This document shows positions 3,256 through 32,206 of a DNA stretch of 64,000 nucleotides, piece by piece. Every line of letters begins with the position of its first letter. The first letter of the stretch is position 1. The notes below the pieces were generated by a model. It was not told the origin of the DNA. It saw nothing but the letters and a program-made list of their open reading frames with translations, and searched no databases. The stretch is from positions 957,501 through 1,021,500 of the forward strand of contig CP074575.1 of NCBI GenBank assembly GCA_018394315.1, written 5' to 3'. Both the position numbers and the translations under genes were made by a program. The DNA is from Mycoplasmatota bacterium (GTDB lineage: Bacteria > Bacillota_I > Bacilli_A > MAG-NZ).

Positions 3256-4077
3256 ATGAAACCAACATTAGAAATAAAAGACTTAAAAGTTAACGTAGAA
3301 AATAAAGAAATATTAAAAGGCGTAAATTTGGAGATAAAAGGTGGAGAGGTTCACGCGATAATGGGACCAAATGGAACAGGTAAATCCACACTATCAATGG
3401 CTGTCATGGGTCATCCAAGATACAATGTGACTTCTGGAAGTGTTATGCTAGATGGTGAAAATGTACTTGATATGAGCGTAGATGAAAGAAGTAGAAATGG
3501 TCTATTTTTAGCTATGCAGTATCCAAAGGAAGTAAACGGAATAACAAATGCTGATTTTGTTAGAACTGCACTTAATAAAAGAAGAGAAGGTTCAGAAATC
3601 AGTTTCGTTAAGTTTTTCAAGAAGTTTGAAAAAGCAGTTTCAGAACTAAAAATGCGCGAAGATCTACCACATCGTTATTTAAATGAGGGATTTAGTGGTG
3701 GAGAAAAAAAACGTAACGAGATATTGCAAATGAAGGTATTAGAACCAAAGATAGCTATTCTTGATGAGATTGACTCTGGGTTAGATGTAGATGCATTAAG
3801 AATTGTTGGAGAAAATGTAAGTTCAATGGTTAATGATAACTTTGGGTGTTTATTAATTACTCATTATCAGAGATTATTAGACCATATTAAACCTGATTTT
3901 GTTCACGTGATGATTGATGGTGTTATTGTAAAAACAGGTGGACAAGAACTTATCAAGAAAATAGATGAAGAAGGTTATGACTGGGTAAGAGAAGAATTAG
4001 GTATTGAATTTGAGCTAGAATTAGATGAGAAAGTGATTTTGGGTAATTGCGCAGTTAGCGGCACGATTAAGGAGTAG
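3256..4077 (+). CDS. sufC: Fe-S assembly ATPase SufC
   Basis: Cytoplasmic ABC-type ATPase of the SufBCD scaffold, which builds Fe-S clusters. 273 residues, slightly longer than the usual ~250. Walker A GPNGTGKST lies near residues 36-44, the signature is FSGGEKKRNEI and Walker B is AILDEIDSGLD. AGGTGA precedes the ATG by a few bases. First gene of the sufC-D-S-U-B operon; SufD starts four bases after this stop. About 200 bp of AT-rich sequence lies upstream; TATAAT-like strings occur there, but I could not settle on one promoter. Confidence 0.97.
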   Translation: MKPTLEIKDLKVNVENKEILKGVNLEIKGGEVHAIMGPNGTGKSTLSMAVMGHPRYNVTSGSVMLDGENVLDMSVDERSRNGLFLAMQYPKEVNGITNADFVRTALNKRREGSEISFVKFFKKFEKAVSELKMREDLPHRYLNEGFSGGEKKRNEILQMKVLEPKIAILDEIDSGLDVDALRIVGENVSSMVNDNFGCLLITHYQRLLDHIKPDFVHVMIDGVIVKTGGQELIKKIDEEGYDWVREELGIEFELELDEKVILGNCAVSGTIKE

Positions 4078-4081
4078 AATG

Positions 4082-5344
4082 ATGTTTGATATTGATATTG
4101 AAAAAATTTTCTCTCATAATCCAAATTCTGTTTTAAATTATCGTAAAGAATCTGTAGCAGATATTGACGCTTTAGAATATCCTAACTTGGGGAAGTTAAA
4201 AATTAGTGATTTTATAAGGAAAGATTTGAAGATTCAAAATGTTTTTATAAATAAATCATATACAGTTCCTAAACAGATTCAAAATATTGTTAAAGATGAA
4301 GATAATGTAATAATATTAAAAGATGGAAATATTATTTATGAAAATCTAGGTGATAGATTCAATGATATTTATATAAACGATTTTAATTCTGCTTTTGAAG
4401 AGAAACCTGATGTCGTACTTGATTTCTTAAAGCAAGAAAAAAATAAGTTAAAGCAGAATAAACTTACTGCTTTTAACAGAGCATATTTAAATAGCGGGAT
4501 TTTAATAGATATACCAAGAAAAACTTCACTTGATGAAATTAAATTATTTTATTTGCAAGAAAACGCAGATATGATTCATAGAACAGTGGTAATAGCTGGT
4601 GAGAGAAGTGATGTAAGAATTGTTGAATATTTTGTGAATAATACAGATTGTACAGCTAATATCGTAACAGATATTTTTGCCAAAGAGAATGCGAAAGTTA
4701 ACTATTTCTCTGTAGATAGATTTTCAAGAGAAGCTAGAGTTTATAATGCTTTTAGAAGTTATGTTGAAAAAAGTGCTTACTTAGATGTTACTCGAGCTGT
4801 GTTATCTGAAGCTAACGTTATTTCTGATACTTTAATTAACTTAGTAGCGATGGGCGCAGAAGTAGAAGTTAAATCTATTGCAATTTCAGAAAATAATCAA
4901 ATTCAAAATATTAATACTGAAACACATCATTTAGCTAAGAATACATATAGTCAAATTACTAATCAAGGTGTATCAACCGACAATTCGAAGTTAGTATTTA
5001 ATAATACAGGTAAGATATATAAAGGAATGAGCTCTTCAAAGGCTTTCCAAACTTCTAGAGGAATAATTTTAAGCAAAAAAGCCTCTTTAAGTGCTAATCC
5101 TTTCTTGTTAATTGATGAATATGATGTTGAAGCTGGTCATGGAGCAACAATTGGTAAGTTTGATGACGATAGTTTATTCTATTTGATGAGTAGAGGATTA
5201 ACAAAAAGTGATGCAGAAAAGCTAATCATCGCTGGATTTATAGCGCCAATCTTAGACGGAATCGAAAATGAATTCCTTAAAGAAGAGATTAAGCATATTA
5301 TAGACTATAAGCTTAGAGAAAAAAAATATTCTGAGGGTGAATAA
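4082..5344 (+). CDS. sufD: Fe-S assembly protein SufD
   Basis: Beta-helix subunit that pairs with SufB and binds SufC in the SufBCD scaffold. Two ATGs are adjacent (4079 and 4082); the second is preferred because AAGGAG at 4069-4074 is then seven bases away. About 420 residues. The C-terminal block [20 protein letters not shown] is the family hallmark shared with SufB. The stop overlaps the RBS region of sufS, which fits translational coupling. Confidence 0.96.
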   Translation: MFDIDIEKIFSHNPNSVLNYRKESVADIDALEYPNLGKLKISDFIRKDLKIQNVFINKSYTVPKQIQNIVKDEDNVIILKDGNIIYENLGDRFNDIYINDFNSAFEEKPDVVLDFLKQEKNKLKQNKLTAFNRAYLNSGILIDIPRKTSLDEIKLFYLQENADMIHRTVVIAGERSDVRIVEYFVNNTDCTANIVTDIFAKENAKVNYFSVDRFSREARVYNAFRSYVEKSAYLDVTRAVLSEANVISDTLINLVAMGAEVEVKSIAISENNQIQNINTETHHLAKNTYSQITNQGVSTDNSKLVFNNTGKIYKGMSSSKAFQTSRGIILSKKASLSANPFLLIDEYDVEAGHGATIGKFDDDSLFYLMSRGLTKSDAEKLIIAGFIAPILDGIENEFLKEEIKHIIDYKLREKKYSEGE

Positions 5345-25515: not shown

Positions 25516-25540
25516 ATGGAAGAATACAATAAATAACACT

Positions 25541-25566
25541 GGTAGACATAGTCTACCGTTTCTTTT
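25541..25566 (+). terminator. Terminator after the Big_14 lipoprotein
   Basis: Seven-bp stem GGTAGAC/GTCTACC with an ATA loop, followed by GTTTCTTTTTT. Confidence 0.85.
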
Positions 25567-25661: not shown

Positions 25662-25670
25662 TGATATAAT
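25662..25670 (+). promoter_or_regulatory. Extended -10 promoter of the jet operon
   Basis: TGATATAAT, 54 bases before the jetA ATG; a second overlapping TATAAT follows at 25670. No convincing -35. Confidence 0.5.
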
Positions 25671-25724
25671 ATAATGAAATGAGTGTTATGTTGGTAAGAT
25701 TTGTCAAACTTAGGAAGTGATTTA

Positions 25725-27155
25725 ATGAACATATTTGATGTAATACCTGAAAAGTTTTTTTCGCTCTTAGCGTCAAAGAATAAGGTCATTTACAGTAAGT
25801 GTATAAAACTGATTTTTGATAGAACTAAAAATGAAGTTTCTTTCAGTTATTCTAGAAGTGATGTTGTTGAAGATATCGTTGAGGTGTTAGAAAATGAACA
25901 TTTGAGCGATTTTGATGAAATTGAAGATGTTAAGACGCATTCATATAAAGATAAAGCTAATGTTATTTTAAGGAAACTTAAAGAATATGGTTGGATTATT
26001 GAGGGACTAAATACTGATTATACAAAAACAATTTTCTTTCCAACCTATGCATTACCTTTTATAGATGCAATAGATAATATTTATGAAAATACGCAGCAAG
26101 TTATATCTTTTGATAATGATGATACTTATACAGAATTTAACTATTCTACTAAAGTTGAAATCGAAGGTTATGCTTATACAATTTACTCATTACTTAATAA
26201 TACTTCGAATTTAAAGAAGAGCACTGTTTTACTACAAACTACAGAAAATATTAAGTTGTTACTTAATTCACTTAAACAACTTAACTATAAAATTAAGTCA
26301 TACTCAGATAGTGTAAAAATATTAACAAATATTGAGGATGCGATTAGAGATTTCTTCACTGAATATACTCAAGAAGTTTTATATAAGAATTATCATAAGA
26401 TCAAAACACTAGATAATATCAGTAAGTATAGAAGTAAAATAATTACTAATTTATCTAGTAAATTAAGAAATGATTTATTTATAAAAACTGTCTCAAAAGA
26501 GCTAGTCTCAAATGATTATTTTGAGACAGTGACTATTGCTTCAGAGAAAGTAAGAGAGATGCTCCATTTTTGTATAGATTCTTTACAAAATGTTGACGAA
26601 ATAGTGAAAGTTATCGAAGAAGAAAACTATATGTATACAAATATAATTCTAAAGAAGACGAAATTCATGATTAAGAATTATGACGATGGAGAAGGTTATT
26701 TAAAGTCGATTCTTAAAAAAGTAGTTGAAGATATCAAAAAGGAAGAAGAGTATGAATTACCTGAGTACTTTGATAAATTGTTTACATTATTTTCAGCTAA
26801 TTATATCGATAACGAGTCATTATATAAACCAAGAAAAACTAGAACAGTATTTAAGCAATCTAGAATAGCGGTTGATGAAAAAATAAATATTGTAGATATA
26901 AATATATTAGATAAACTTAGTAGTTCTGGTCATTCGCTTAAATTTATAGATAAATATGTAACTGAGTTACTTGGTGAAAAGATAGAGATTAAAATTGAGG
27001 AAATTCCACTTAATACAATTTCTGATTTCATAATACTGATCTATATGATTATATACGCATCGAAAAGCGACAAATATTCGGTTGATTATTTTGATGATGA
27101 AATAATTGTTAATGGCGTTAAATTTAGAAAATTTTCAGTTAGGGGGAACTCTTAA
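25725..27155 (+). CDS. jetA: Wadjet/Mks SMC complex subunit JetA (kleisin, MukF-like)
   Basis: 476 residues from ATG 25725 (AGGAAGTGA upstream). It begins MNIFDVIPEKFFSLLASKNK, the characteristic JetA N-terminus (DUF5716 family), which links the SMC heads and binds JetB. Winged-helix-like ends and a helical middle are expected. It overlaps jetB by one base (TAATG), the same junction as jetC with the stub after it. First gene of the operon. Family call rests on the N-terminal motif and on the JetB- and JetC-like genes behind it. Confidence 0.88.
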   Translation: MNIFDVIPEKFFSLLASKNKVIYSKCIKLIFDRTKNEVSFSYSRSDVVEDIVEVLENEHLSDFDEIEDVKTHSYKDKANVILRKLKEYGWIIEGLNTDYTKTIFFPTYALPFIDAIDNIYENTQQVISFDNDDTYTEFNYSTKVEIEGYAYTIYSLLNNTSNLKKSTVLLQTTENIKLLLNSLKQLNYKIKSYSDSVKILTNIEDAIRDFFTEYTQEVLYKNYHKIKTLDNISKYRSKIITNLSSKLRNDLFIKTVSKELVSNDYFETVTIASEKVREMLHFCIDSLQNVDEIVKVIEEENYMYTNIILKKTKFMIKNYDDGEGYLKSILKKVVEDIKKEEEYELPEYFDKLFTLFSANYIDNESLYKPRKTRTVFKQSRIAVDEKINIVDINILDKLSSSGHSLKFIDKYVTELLGEKIEIKIEEIPLNTISDFIILIYMIIYASKSDKYSVDYFDDEIIVNGVKFRKFSVRGNS

Positions 27156-27781
27156 TGTGGCAACAAGATTACGAAAAACTATCAACTTCAGGTAAAAAGC
27201 AATTTTCCGATGCTGCGAATAAATTATTAGCTGTAAATTTTCTTGTTAAATCAAAACAAGAAAATATAAATAATTACTATTTCATCTCTAAAAACATTGA
27301 TTTATTTACTGAGTATTTCAAGTTTATTGACTGGGAAGTAGAAATAAATAATGATTTAGGAGTAATTTGTATTAAAAATACTCTTAATAGAAATAGGCTT
27401 AATTTGAAGTTGAATGAAACAATTACTTTATTAATATTAAGGTTATTGTATGAACAAAATAGCGATGAAGTAAACTTAGATGATAGCGTAGAAATAAAAG
27501 TCTCTGATATTCATGAAATGTATGCAATCATCGGACTTGAAAATAGGATACTAACTAAGACAGCTATAACTGAGATTTTATCATTATTTAGACGCTTTAA
27601 TCTAATTGAATTAGAAAGTTTAACGTCTTTATCTACTGAGGATAGTATTTTTATATTACCATCGATTCTGATGGCTGTTGAAACTAGTAATATATTTGAT
27701 GTTTATAAGAAACTTAATGGATTTGGAAATGCAGATGGAGGTGATGCTTTTGAAGAAGTTAAAGAAGATAAAGTTGATTAA
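27155..27781 (+). CDS. jetB: Wadjet/Mks SMC complex subunit JetB (kite, MukE-like)
   Basis: 208 residues, DUF4194-like, the winged-helix subunit that binds the kleisin. Segments YYFISKNIDLFTEYFKFIDW and LNETITLLILRLLYEQ fit the family. The start overlaps the jetA stop. It overlaps jetC by about 32 bases, and its 3' end contains the GGAGGTGA ribosome site for jetC. Confidence 0.86.
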   Translation: MWQQDYEKLSTSGKKQFSDAANKLLAVNFLVKSKQENINNYYFISKNIDLFTEYFKFIDWEVEINNDLGVICIKNTLNRNRLNLKLNETITLLILRLLYEQNSDEVNLDDSVEIKVSDIHEMYAIIGLENRILTKTAITEILSLFRRFNLIELESLTSLSTEDSIFILPSILMAVETSNIFDVYKKLNGFGNADGGDAFEEVKEDKVD

Positions 27782-30700
27782 TTGGCATTACTTCATCAAT
27801 GAAACAATTGATATTGAGGGCAATACTCTAATAACAGGGGAAAATGGTGCTGGAAAATCAACTATATTAGATGCAATACAATACGTCCTTTCTCCGGGTA
27901 GACAAAAGTTTAATATTGCTGCTAATGATAAAACAAAGAGAACTGTAAACGCATATGTTAGAGGTAAATTAGGTAGATCCGATCAAAGGTACTTGCGTGA
28001 AGGTGATGTTACATGTCATATATCTTTAGAATTTTTTGATGAACTAACTAATGAATCTTTTGTAGTAGGAACAGTTTTAGATTCTTCTGATACAATCTCG
28101 TCACCTAATTCACTGTTTTATGATTTACCAAATGTTAATATATCAGATGATCTTTTCATTAATGACGATAAGATTCCTTTTAATATTAAAGAATTTAAGA
28201 AAAATGTTAAGGAATCTAAATTACAAAATAAACTGGCAAATACTTTGGTAGCAGCTAGAAAGAATATTGCTTTTAGATTTAATATTTCTGATTATAACTT
28301 TTTTGAGTTATTACCAAAAGCATTAGCTTTTAAGCCGATAAATAACGTTAAGGATTTTATATATTCATATATCTTAGAAGAAAAGGACTTAGATATTGAG
28401 TACTTAATAGGTAATATAAAAACTTATAAGGAATTCATTAATATCTTAGAGGGTGTTAATGAGAAACTTACTGATTTAAAAGAAATTGATGAAACACATA
28501 AAAGTGTAATATCTATTGAAGAAGAGTTTAAAACTATGCTTTACGTATATAAGAAGTGCTTCGTTGATAATCTAGCTGCTCAGATTAAGCTAAATGAAGA
28601 TAATAGAACTTCTTATAGTTCAAAACTTGATTTATTGAGTGAGGAAAAAAGAGTATTAAAAACTGAACTTAATTCAATTATTAGTAAAAGAGATGATGTT
28701 CATCTATCTTTGCTTGTAGATGATGACTACAAAATGCTTAATAGACTAAATAGTGATAAAGAGGAATTATCTAGTAAAATTGAGGGGTTTAGTAGTGTAA
28801 ACTCAAAAATTGATAGAATAATTATTGATGAGTTTCTAAGGGCAGAAAAATTATTAGCTCAAGGATATAGTGATAAGTCGATAAGTAGATTTTTAAACTT
28901 TAAGAATGTTACCTTGGATATATTCAATATAAACGAGTTTATAGATGTGGTTTCAGATTATTATTCATTTATAATTCGAACAAAAAATGCTATTTCAGAA
29001 AGAAAGATTTTAGAGAATGTCAAAAAGGAAATAGTTGAGGAATCTCTAACTGAGATTTATCAAGATATTAAGGTTCTAAATGAGAAGAAGGTTTTAATTC
29101 CTAAAGATGTTTTAGGCTTTAGAAATCGTTTGAAGGAGTTGCTAAAGGAAAGAAGAGACTATGATACTACGCCTATAATCTTAAGTGAAGTATTAGAAAT
29201 AAAAGACAAAAGATGGCAAAATGCAATTGAAGGTTATTTAGGGAGAGATCGATTTAACATTTTAGTTAATCCTGAATTTTTTAATGAGTCATTAAAAATA
29301 TATAAGGAGATTAGAAGTGAGTTTAAGAAGTTCCCTATATCATTAGTAAATACCGAAAAATTAACGAAGTATAAAGATGAAAATATCAGAGGATTAGCAA
29401 GTGAAATTGAAAGTAATTATAGTTATGCAAAGTATTATATTAATTATAGACTTAATAATTTAGTTAAGTGTGAGAATGTTGAAGATTTACCAACTCATAA
29501 TCAGGCTGTTACACCTGACTGTATTATTTATAGGGGATATACTGTAAGTGAGCTGAATAAAAGAAATTATGAGAGGTTATATATTGGTAGTGATGCTCAT
29601 GTAGCGCAGCTTAAACAATCCTATAACTTATTAGATAATAAGAGAAAAGAGCTTGCAGAACATAATAAGATAATTACAAAATATGATGATCTAGTCAAAT
29701 TATTAGATTTACATGATTTAAGTTATGTAAAAGACAGAATTGATGTAAAAATTGAGACATTTAGTAAGATAAATACACTAAATGAGCTTAATGAAACAAT
29801 TAATAATTTAAAAGTTAGTACTGTTTCGGATAAGCAAGAGATTATTAAAAAACTAGAAGAGGAATACGGAAAGTTACAGACTAGACTAGAAAATCTCACT
29901 GAAGAGATATCTTTAATAACTCATAAATTAAGTGAGATTAGTTCTGATGAAGAAGCGCATCTACAGTTAGATGAAGAAAGAATAAAACTAGAAGAATATG
30001 AAGTGGAGATCTCTGTTTTAATGAATGTAGCAAAACAGAAACTTGATAAAGTCTTAGAAGAGAGCAAAGATGATAAATATCTATTAAAATCTCTAGAGCT
30101 TAAACTTAAAACACAAGAGAAAGATTATTTATCAAGAGTGAATGATTTAGTTATATTACAGAGAATGTATTCAACAAATCATAACTTTGAAGCATTAGAA
30201 GGTATTAAAGGTATGGATGCTTTCTTTGAGGAACAACAAAGACTAAGAACATCTCACTTAATTTCATACGAAGAAAAAGTTTATGAATCTAAACATAGAT
30301 CTGAGAGCGAACTTCAAGAGCACTTTATCTTTAGATTGCATGAGAGTTTACTTGAAGCTAGAAGACATTTTACTGAGTTAAATAATTCTCTTAGTGGTGT
30401 TATGTTCGGTACAGATGAGTATGAGTTTGTGTTCAGGCCTAACAGTAAATACTCAGATTATTATGAAATGCTTTTAGATAGTGTTAATTATGAAAGTAAT
30501 ACCGAAGGTTTTTCTAAAGAATTTTTAGATAAATATGGTAAAACTTTAGAAAAACTAACAGAATATATTGTAAGAGAAGATATTAATGAAAAGTTCTTAG
30601 AGGAAATCGTAGACTATAGAACTTATATGGATTACGATATTAGAATAATCCACGGTGATGAGAGCGAGAGTTTGCTGTCGGAAATATCAAGAGAGAAGAG

Positions 30701-31010
30701 TGGAGGAGAAACTCAGATTCCTTACTATGTCGCAATGGCATCTACTTTTATCAAAATATATCAATCAAACAGTGTGAATTCAGATTCTATGGGAATAGTA
30801 TTATTTGATGAAGCATTCGATAAAATCGACAGTACTAGAACAGAAGCTATGATGAATTTCTTGAGTAATTTAGGTCTACAAGTTATCATATCTACCCCAC
30901 CACAAAAAGTAGAAGATATATATCCATTTGTAGATTCGACTTTAGTAGTGACTAGAGACACAGATTATTCTTGGGTATTCACTCTTAATAAGGAAGTGCT
31001 AGAGCAATAA
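27750..31010 (+). CDS. jetC: Wadjet/Mks SMC ATPase JetC (MukB-like)
   Basis: SMC-type ATPase that extrudes DNA loops. TTG 27750 is chosen because GGAGGTGA (27737-27744) is five bases before it and the product then starts MKKLKKIKLINWHYF, as relatives do. 1086 residues. Walker A GENGAGKST at 30-38, long coiled coils around a central hinge, signature SGGET near 984-988 and Walker B GIVLFDEAFDKID near 1015. In standard Wadjet operons the Toprim nuclease JetD follows. Here there is none; an ATG overlapping this stop opens only an 11-codon frame. Confidence 0.92.
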   Translation: MKKLKKIKLINWHYFINETIDIEGNTLITGENGAGKSTILDAIQYVLSPGRQKFNIAANDKTKRTVNAYVRGKLGRSDQRYLREGDVTCHISLEFFDELTNESFVVGTVLDSSDTISSPNSLFYDLPNVNISDDLFINDDKIPFNIKEFKKNVKESKLQNKLANTLVAARKNIAFRFNISDYNFFELLPKALAFKPINNVKDFIYSYILEEKDLDIEYLIGNIKTYKEFINILEGVNEKLTDLKEIDETHKSVISIEEEFKTMLYVYKKCFVDNLAAQIKLNEDNRTSYSSKLDLLSEEKRVLKTELNSIISKRDDVHLSLLVDDDYKMLNRLNSDKEELSSKIEGFSSVNSKIDRIIIDEFLRAEKLLAQGYSDKSISRFLNFKNVTLDIFNINEFIDVVSDYYSFIIRTKNAISERKILENVKKEIVEESLTEIYQDIKVLNEKKVLIPKDVLGFRNRLKELLKERRDYDTTPIILSEVLEIKDKRWQNAIEGYLGRDRFNILVNPEFFNESLKIYKEIRSEFKKFPISLVNTEKLTKYKDENIRGLASEIESNYSYAKYYINYRLNNLVKCENVEDLPTHNQAVTPDCIIYRGYTVSELNKRNYERLYIGSDAHVAQLKQSYNLLDNKRKELAEHNKIITKYDDLVKLLDLHDLSYVKDRIDVKIETFSKINTLNELNETINNLKVSTVSDKQEIIKKLEEEYGKLQTRLENLTEEISLITHKLSEISSDEEAHLQLDEERIKLEEYEVEISVLMNVAKQKLDKVLEESKDDKYLLKSLELKLKTQEKDYLSRVNDLVILQRMYSTNHNFEALEGIKGMDAFFEEQQRLRTSHLISYEEKVYESKHRSESELQEHFIFRLHESLLEARRHFTELNNSLSGVMFGTDEYEFVFRPNSKYSDYYEMLLDSVNYESNTEGFSKEFLDKYGKTLEKLTEYIVREDINEKFLEEIVDYRTYMDYDIRIIHGDESESLLSEISREKSGGETQIPYYVAMASTFIKIYQSNSVNSDSMGIVLFDEAFDKIDSTRTEAMMNFLSNLGLQVIISTPPQKVEDIYPFVDSTLVVTRDTDYSWVFTLNKEVLEQ

Positions 31011-31045
31011 TGTTTAATATATTAGAAGCTTTAAAGGAAGTTTAG
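31010..31045 (+). pseudogene. 11-codon stub after jetC, possible jetD relic
   Basis: ATG overlaps the jetC stop (TAATG), the same coupling used between jetA and jetB, and then MFNILEALKEV is followed by TAG. The next 69 bases hold no jetD-like coding sequence before the promoter region of the next gene. This suggests a fourth gene was once coupled here and was deleted, but the sequence is too short to identify. Confidence 0.35.
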
Positions 31046-31114
31046 CCCTCTTGATGATTTGTGCAAACTACCAACTAACATTTAATTTTCGTTACATTAT
31101 AAAGGGAGTATAAT

Positions 31115-32206
31115 ATGGCAACTTTGAACTTTAAAGGACTTAATAAGATTTATCCTAATGGTGTACAAGCAGTTTATGATTTTGATTTAGAGGTTAAAGA
31201 TAAAGAATTTATTATCTTTGTCGGGCCGTCAGGTTGTGGTAAATCAACTACATTAAGAATGGTTGCAGGACTTGAAGAGATTACATCTGGAGAATTATAT
31301 ATTGATGATATATTAATTAATAATGTAGCTCCAAAGGATAGAAATATTGCTATGGTGTTTCAAAACTATGCTTTGTATCCACATATGACTGTTTATGATA
31401 ATATGGCATTTGGATTAAAATTACGTAAGATGGATAAGGGTGTAATCGAAGAAAAAGTTAATAATGCAGCAAAAATTTTAGGTTTAACTAAATATTTGAA
31501 ACGTAAACCAAAAGCATTATCAGGAGGACAACGTCAGCGTGTCGCGTTAGGAAGAGCTATCGTAAGAAATGCAAAAGTTTTCTTAATGGATGAACCACTA
31601 AGTAACCTTGATGCGAAATTACGAGTTCAGATGCGAGCAGAGATTGGAAAACTACATGCTAAATTAGAAACTACAACCATTTATGTAACGCATGACCAAA
31701 TTGAAGCTATGACTATGGCAAGTAGAATTGTTGTGATGAAAGATGGGTATATTCAACAAGTAGGACCTCCAAAGGAAATTTATGATTATCCAGCTAATGT
31801 ATTTGTTGGTTCATTTATAGGAACACCTCCAATGAATTTCTTTAAAGGAATAATAAAGGATGATAAATTTACTTCAAGCAGTATGGTTTTAACAGTTTCT
31901 AAAGAAAGAGTCGGTGAATTAAAGCGATTAGGTTACGAAAATAAAGAAATATATTTAGGAATTAGACCTGAGCACGTTTATGATAAGAAAAGTAACGAAC
32001 AACATGCTGAAGTTAGTGTTAATTTAGTTGAGTTAGTCGGTTCTGAATCAGTAATACATGCAACAACAGGTGAAACTGACTTTGTGGCTAAAGTTGGAGT
32101 TAGAACTGATATATCAATCGGGGATACTATTAGTGTTTCATTTGACTTAGATAGAGCACATTTCTTTGACGTTAAAACTGAAGAAAGAATTAAGATTAAG
32201 AAATAA
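31115..32206 (+). CDS. Sugar ABC transporter ATPase (MsmX/UgpC type)
   Basis: 363 residues. Walker A GPSGCGKST, Q-loop MVFQNYALYP, signature LSGGQRQRVALGRA, Walker B VFLMDEPLSNLD and a C-terminal TOBE domain (from about residue 240) mark the carbohydrate-importer ATPases of the MalK/UgpC/MsmX group. No permease or binding-protein genes adjoin it, so it may energise several importers encoded elsewhere, as MsmX does. It has its own hairpin terminator. Confidence 0.93.
   Translation: MATLNFKGLNKIYPNGVQAVYDFDLEVKDKEFIIFVGPSGCGKSTTLRMVAGLEEITSGELYIDDILINNVAPKDRNIAMVFQNYALYPHMTVYDNMAFGLKLRKMDKGVIEEKVNNAAKILGLTKYLKRKPKALSGGQRQRVALGRAIVRNAKVFLMDEPLSNLDAKLRVQMRAEIGKLHAKLETTTIYVTHDQIEAMTMASRIVVMKDGYIQQVGPPKEIYDYPANVFVGSFIGTPPMNFFKGIIKDDKFTSSSMVLTVSKERVGELKRLGYENKEIYLGIRPEHVYDKKSNEQHAEVSVNLVELVGSESVIHATTGETDFVAKVGVRTDISIGDTISVSFDLDRAHFFDVKTEERIKIKK

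Follow-up and report, generated by a model that had tools for sequence, protein, structure and literature searches.

The window analysed here is a stretch of 64,000 nucleotides from a Mycoplasmatota bacterium (contig CP074575.1, positions 957,501 to 1,021,500), in which jetA, jetB and jetC form an operon of the type I Wadjet kind that lacks the nuclease gene jetD. It seems likely that this operon is a former type I Wadjet system that has lost JetD and now provides the only structural maintenance of chromosomes (SMC) complex of the cell, replacing the missing SMC-ScpAB. All three genes are intact, each overlapping the next on the forward strand, and PADLOC recognises type I JetA, JetB and JetC in one operon; the kleisin, KITE and SMC ATPase core of the Muk-Mks-Jet SMC complexes is present. 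The features of the locus are as follows:

25725 to 27155, forward strand: jetA, kleisin subunit of type I Wadjet, 476 amino acids, ATG start (PADLOC JetA1, 8.8e-103; Pfam JetA, PF18982, 9.5e-70)
27155 to 27781, forward strand: jetB, KITE subunit, 208 amino acids, ATG start (PADLOC JetB1, 1.6e-56; DUF4194, 3.1e-23)
27744 (ATG; alternative TTG at 27750) to 31010, forward strand: jetC, SMC-like ATPase, 1088 amino acids (PADLOC JetC1, 1.9e-275; SbcC_Walker_B, 9.6e-22)
31010 to 31045, forward strand: open reading frame of 11 codons that overlaps the jetC stop, unlike JetD N-termini and unconserved; judged not to be a gene
31115 to 32206, forward strand: malK-type sugar ABC ATPase, an unrelated neighbour in the place expected for jetD (PF00005 and OB_MalK)
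25540 to 25558, forward strand: terminator-like hairpin and T run, recognised by a consensus match only, between jetA and the lipoprotein-like gene that precedes it

The start of jetB and the stop of jetA share a TAATG overlap, and jetB and jetC overlap by 38 bases. The initial annotation had described three overlapping genes for JetA, JetB and JetC, the last with its ATPase motifs retained, and both statements hold: the reading frame positions, PADLOC and Pfam agree, the profile searches put all three proteins firmly in JetA1, JetB1 and JetC1, within the Jet/Mks families, and alignment A1 shows all three motifs intact: GENGAGKST (Walker A), KSGGETQ (signature) and VLFDEAFDK (Walker B). The closest kind of solved structure is the JetC of PDB entry 8as8 (2e-37 with a profile of the window JetC family).

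Restriction of plasmids by Wadjet requires the Toprim nuclease JetD. A search for JetD_C (PF09983), with a working control, gave no match in the whole genome to which the window belongs (a single contig of 2.165 Mb) or in the members of its family; the same search was positive in 30 of the 395 genomes of the class, which shows it to be functional. The genome is thus without the nuclease that type I Wadjet defence includes, as the initial annotation had proposed for the operon, and tblastn returned no convincing JetD remnant in the window. The annotation was also correct that jetC is followed by an overlapping frame of 11 codons and then by an unrelated sugar ATPase. This frame was rejected as a JetD remnant, as it is missing from relatives of the same genus and family, in which the locus comparison found JetABC kept, and no convincing remnant was seen with tblastn. 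A conserved replacement effector was likewise rejected, since clustering of the neighbouring genes gave none common to the JetD-less families. At one locus elsewhere in the class (L009/L033, G020:C111), the JetD beside JetC is split in two frames (3626 to 4255 and 4475 to 4861 in L009), which possibly represents either JetD loss under way or an assembly error.

The initial annotation had suggested looking for a standard SMC-ScpAB, and neither the SMC hinge (PF06470) nor ScpA (PF02616) gave a match in the window genome or in its three family members. Around 180 of the 395 class genomes matched each of these profiles, the two sets being nearly identical. In the window genome, a search with SMC_N (PF02463) retrieved frames of RecN- and RecF-like length, JetC, and a remainder of mostly ABC-transporter-like ATPase frames, and JetC is the sole SMC-complex ATPase found there. 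ParB is present in four of the four genomes of the family, and no parS was found in the window. ParB has been kept in several SMC-less families (G000:C1:630058-630351; families f1, f12, f14 and f22), with one strong HTH_ParB (helix-turn-helix) match per genome in those families and mostly two in the SMC-bearing f7, f13 and f19.

A comparable pattern is seen across the class, for which only the two best JetC candidates per genome were scored and six weak matches (five to the hinge, one to ScpA) were not counted as present. JetC was detected in 115 of the 395 genomes, and both SMC and ScpA are absent from 93 of the 95 genomes that have JetC and no JetD. With a purpose-made JetD profile run on the fetched class loci, JetD was found to adjoin JetC in 15 copies and in no other fetched locus, about 30 further JetC copies being judged JetD-less from the genome-wide JetD_C search. 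Genomes with a JetD-less JetC copy lack SMC in 100 of 107 cases, compared with 111 of 288 genomes without such a copy (Fisher p about 3e-25, kinship ignored), and SMC is retained in 10 of the 15 genomes with linked JetABCD. In four SMC-less genomes (G157, G383, G328 and G321), a JetD-less second operon accompanies a full JetABCD. One further SMC-less genome, G136, was observed in which the only JetABC found (L074) is linked to an intact JetD. Named loci from Acholeplasmatales, Anaeroplasma, Izimaplasma and 'Tenericutes' have no JetD behind JetC, and L181, the locus of the cultured Anaeroplasma bactoclasticum ATCC 27112, is of the JetD-less form. In the named Clostridia loci (Lachnospiraceae and others), JetD stands behind JetC except in L184, which reaches a contig end, and L151 (Eubacterium).

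The history of JetC was examined in two JetC trees, both unrooted. On these, JetD-less JetC forms several groups: in the window family, in f9 (which includes an Acholeplasmataceae bacterium), in f20 to f22 (f21 including A. bactoclasticum ATCC 27112, f22 Candidatus Izimaplasma), in f6, f18, f24 and f25, in a separate f6 set, and in second copies of the Haloplasma-like family f7 (labelled from a Haloplasma contractile metagenome-assembled genome). The state of JetD requires six to seven changes on these trees, and a single clade of JetD-less JetC, implying one origin, was rejected (approximately unbiased test, p=7.4e-7). The JetC group of the window is sister to the JetABCD of f7 (support 97 and 88). 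Repeated loss of JetD is well supported; that the direction was loss and not gain may be assumed because JetD, where present, is homologous and at the same place, and because Clostridia carry it. JetD is absent from several separate Jet lineages, mostly in SMC-less genomes, and a switch from defence to housekeeping appears to have taken place more than once in the class. There is perhaps an even chance that SMC-ScpAB was lost in a large part of the class (Acholeplasma-, Anaeroplasma- and Izemoplasma-like and related bacteria) and that at least four Jet lineages were disarmed by JetD loss into a chromosomal SMC complex.

JetABC has been retained in these bacteria and, judged by sequence identity, appears to evolve faster than RpoBC: between members of the genus of the window organism, JetA, JetB and JetC share 76-80% identity, and between members of its family 47-52%, compared with 90% and 80% for RpoBC. 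Each ATPase motif is kept in 94-99% of 106 JetD-less JetC sequences. Within families, neighbouring genes are shared in 100 of 177 pairs of JetD-less loci, in one of eight pairs of JetABCD loci and in none of 37 mixed pairs, and in families other than that of the window the operon context is preserved across genera. By eye, the shared neighbours look like rlmN-prpC-prkC-rpe and glycogen genes (f6, f18), dnaK-dnaJ (f20, f22) and ptsI (f9).

It is reasonable to propose that JetC dimers, with JetA (kleisin) and JetB (KITE) holding them, would attach to DNA, hydrolyse ATP and, as inferred from studied relatives, extrude loops along the chromosome. Where JetD is missing, completion or stalling of a loop would result in compaction and an aid to segregation instead of cleavage. 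Among known systems, type I Wadjet (JetABCD/MksBEFG/EptABCD) shares with the window operon homologous JetA, JetB and JetC in the same order, overlapping genes and intact ATPase motifs; however, the window genome has neither JetD anywhere nor SMC-ScpAB, and most families related to that of the window hold the JetABC operon in a conserved rather than a variable context. Pseudomonas aeruginosa MksBEF has a role in chromosome segregation (PMC7485682) of the kind proposed here for JetABC, but it coexists with SMC-ScpAB (PMC7485682), which the window genome lacks. Enterobacterial MukBEF is likewise a kleisin-KITE-SMC complex that apparently supplanted SMC-ScpAB (PMC10586767), although the profile matches only part of MukB, which has 1482 amino acids against the 1088 of JetC. 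With SMC-ScpAB itself JetABC would share a presumed cellular role; nonetheless, it belongs to a different family.

Several observations weigh against so general a role for JetABC. The absence of SMC covers just two clades on the RpoB-RpoC tree, which makes two losses of SMC probable for this sample; the genome-level association is therefore not one of 395 independent points. A test on independent pairs, with four pairs only, was not significant, and few independent events stand behind the link between the losses of JetD and of SMC. The gene context of the operon is unconserved in the window's own family. Furthermore, no JetC was found in 110 of the 211 SMC-less genomes; cells of the class can therefore apparently dispense with both systems, and substitution by JetABC is apparently not obligatory. 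Finally, f7 retains a second, JetD-less JetABC beside SMC. The last two points indicate that the complex need not be the general condensin, and they speak for an auxiliary one with a specialised duty (the terminus, replication-transcription conflicts or ParB-linked work at the origin), the bulk of the chromosome being folded by nucleoid-associated proteins; the retention of ParB is also consistent with this possibility. We nevertheless regard it as unlikely; in the window genome, no SMC-complex ATPase besides JetC was found.

It is also rather improbable that JetABC still acts against plasmids or phages, either through an unlinked and unrelated nuclease or by compaction and silencing of uncut foreign circular DNA, as proposed for Smc5/6. 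Every profile calls the window proteins type I Wadjet, the presence of JetD in nearly all named Clostridia loci suggests that the ancestral role was probably defence, and an unrelated effector lies beyond the reach of homology searches. However, there is no conserved fourth gene behind jetC across the JetD-less families, the contexts conserved within families are unlike those of a mobile defence island, and continued defence leaves the concentration in SMC-less genomes unexplained. Less probable still is a decaying remnant in which JetD was lost recently and JetABC, functionless at present, is disappearing. Some members of the same clades (f4, f16, f12 and part of f6) do have no JetC that could be found, but three intact genes are retained together in genomes down to 52% JetC identity, the ATPase motifs are preserved across the JetD-less sequences, and other families hold the operon in one context across genera. 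The proposed replacement of SMC-ScpAB by a disarmed Wadjet combines two of the options offered by the initial annotation, namely deletion of JetD from a Wadjet ancestor and a nuclease-free form working on the chromosome, whereas its third option, an unlinked effector, found no support.

Descent of MukBEF and MksBEF from Wadjet, in the case of MksBEF via JetD loss, has been suggested (PMC10586767). In the literature searched, largely without subscription papers or preprints, neither a JetD-less Wadjet nor SMC loss is reported in these bacteria, which weakly suggests that the JetD-less form is new here. The loss of JetD seems to have recurred in lineages of which some members are in culture, and in cells where the searches revealed no second SMC complex; this makes it testable which changes a DNA-cutting loop extruder needs to run a chromosome. 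It should be noted that, when annotation pipelines call JetABC a Wadjet defence system, they may be naming a condensin.

Gut bacteria without any known condensin have been found (PMC10197239). In the present sample, SMC hinge, ScpA and JetC are all missing from families f4, f12 and f16 and from part of f6 and f14 (for example, G006, G014 and G028). A search for a hidden divergent JetC with profile A1, run without an internal positive control, gave none in 80 of the 110 genomes with neither system, and the PF13558 matches above cut-off in a sample of such genomes come mostly from frames of SbcC-like length (length only). In f7, the JetD-less second JetABC occurs alongside SMC-ScpA at L063 to L068, in genomes several of which also have a full JetABCD; in G009, G042 and G052 it shares a contig with the SMC hinge match, at a distance of roughly 16-29 kb.

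A comparison of alignment columns between JetD-bearing and JetD-less sequences showed no compact lost patch, and a lost JetD-binding surface was rejected as a candidate. In JetB, residue 19 is arginine in 51 of 61 sequences from JetD-bearing operons versus 27 of 105 from JetD-less ones, and aspartate in the window jetB (27155 to 27781). This arginine belongs, in the JetD-bearing sequences, to an F-x-R motif near the N-terminus. No PDB JetB was detected for an alignment, but the F-x-R motif has the same form as the IFDR motif with which the JetB N-terminus contacts JetD (PMC10586767), a hint that it might correspond to this published contact.
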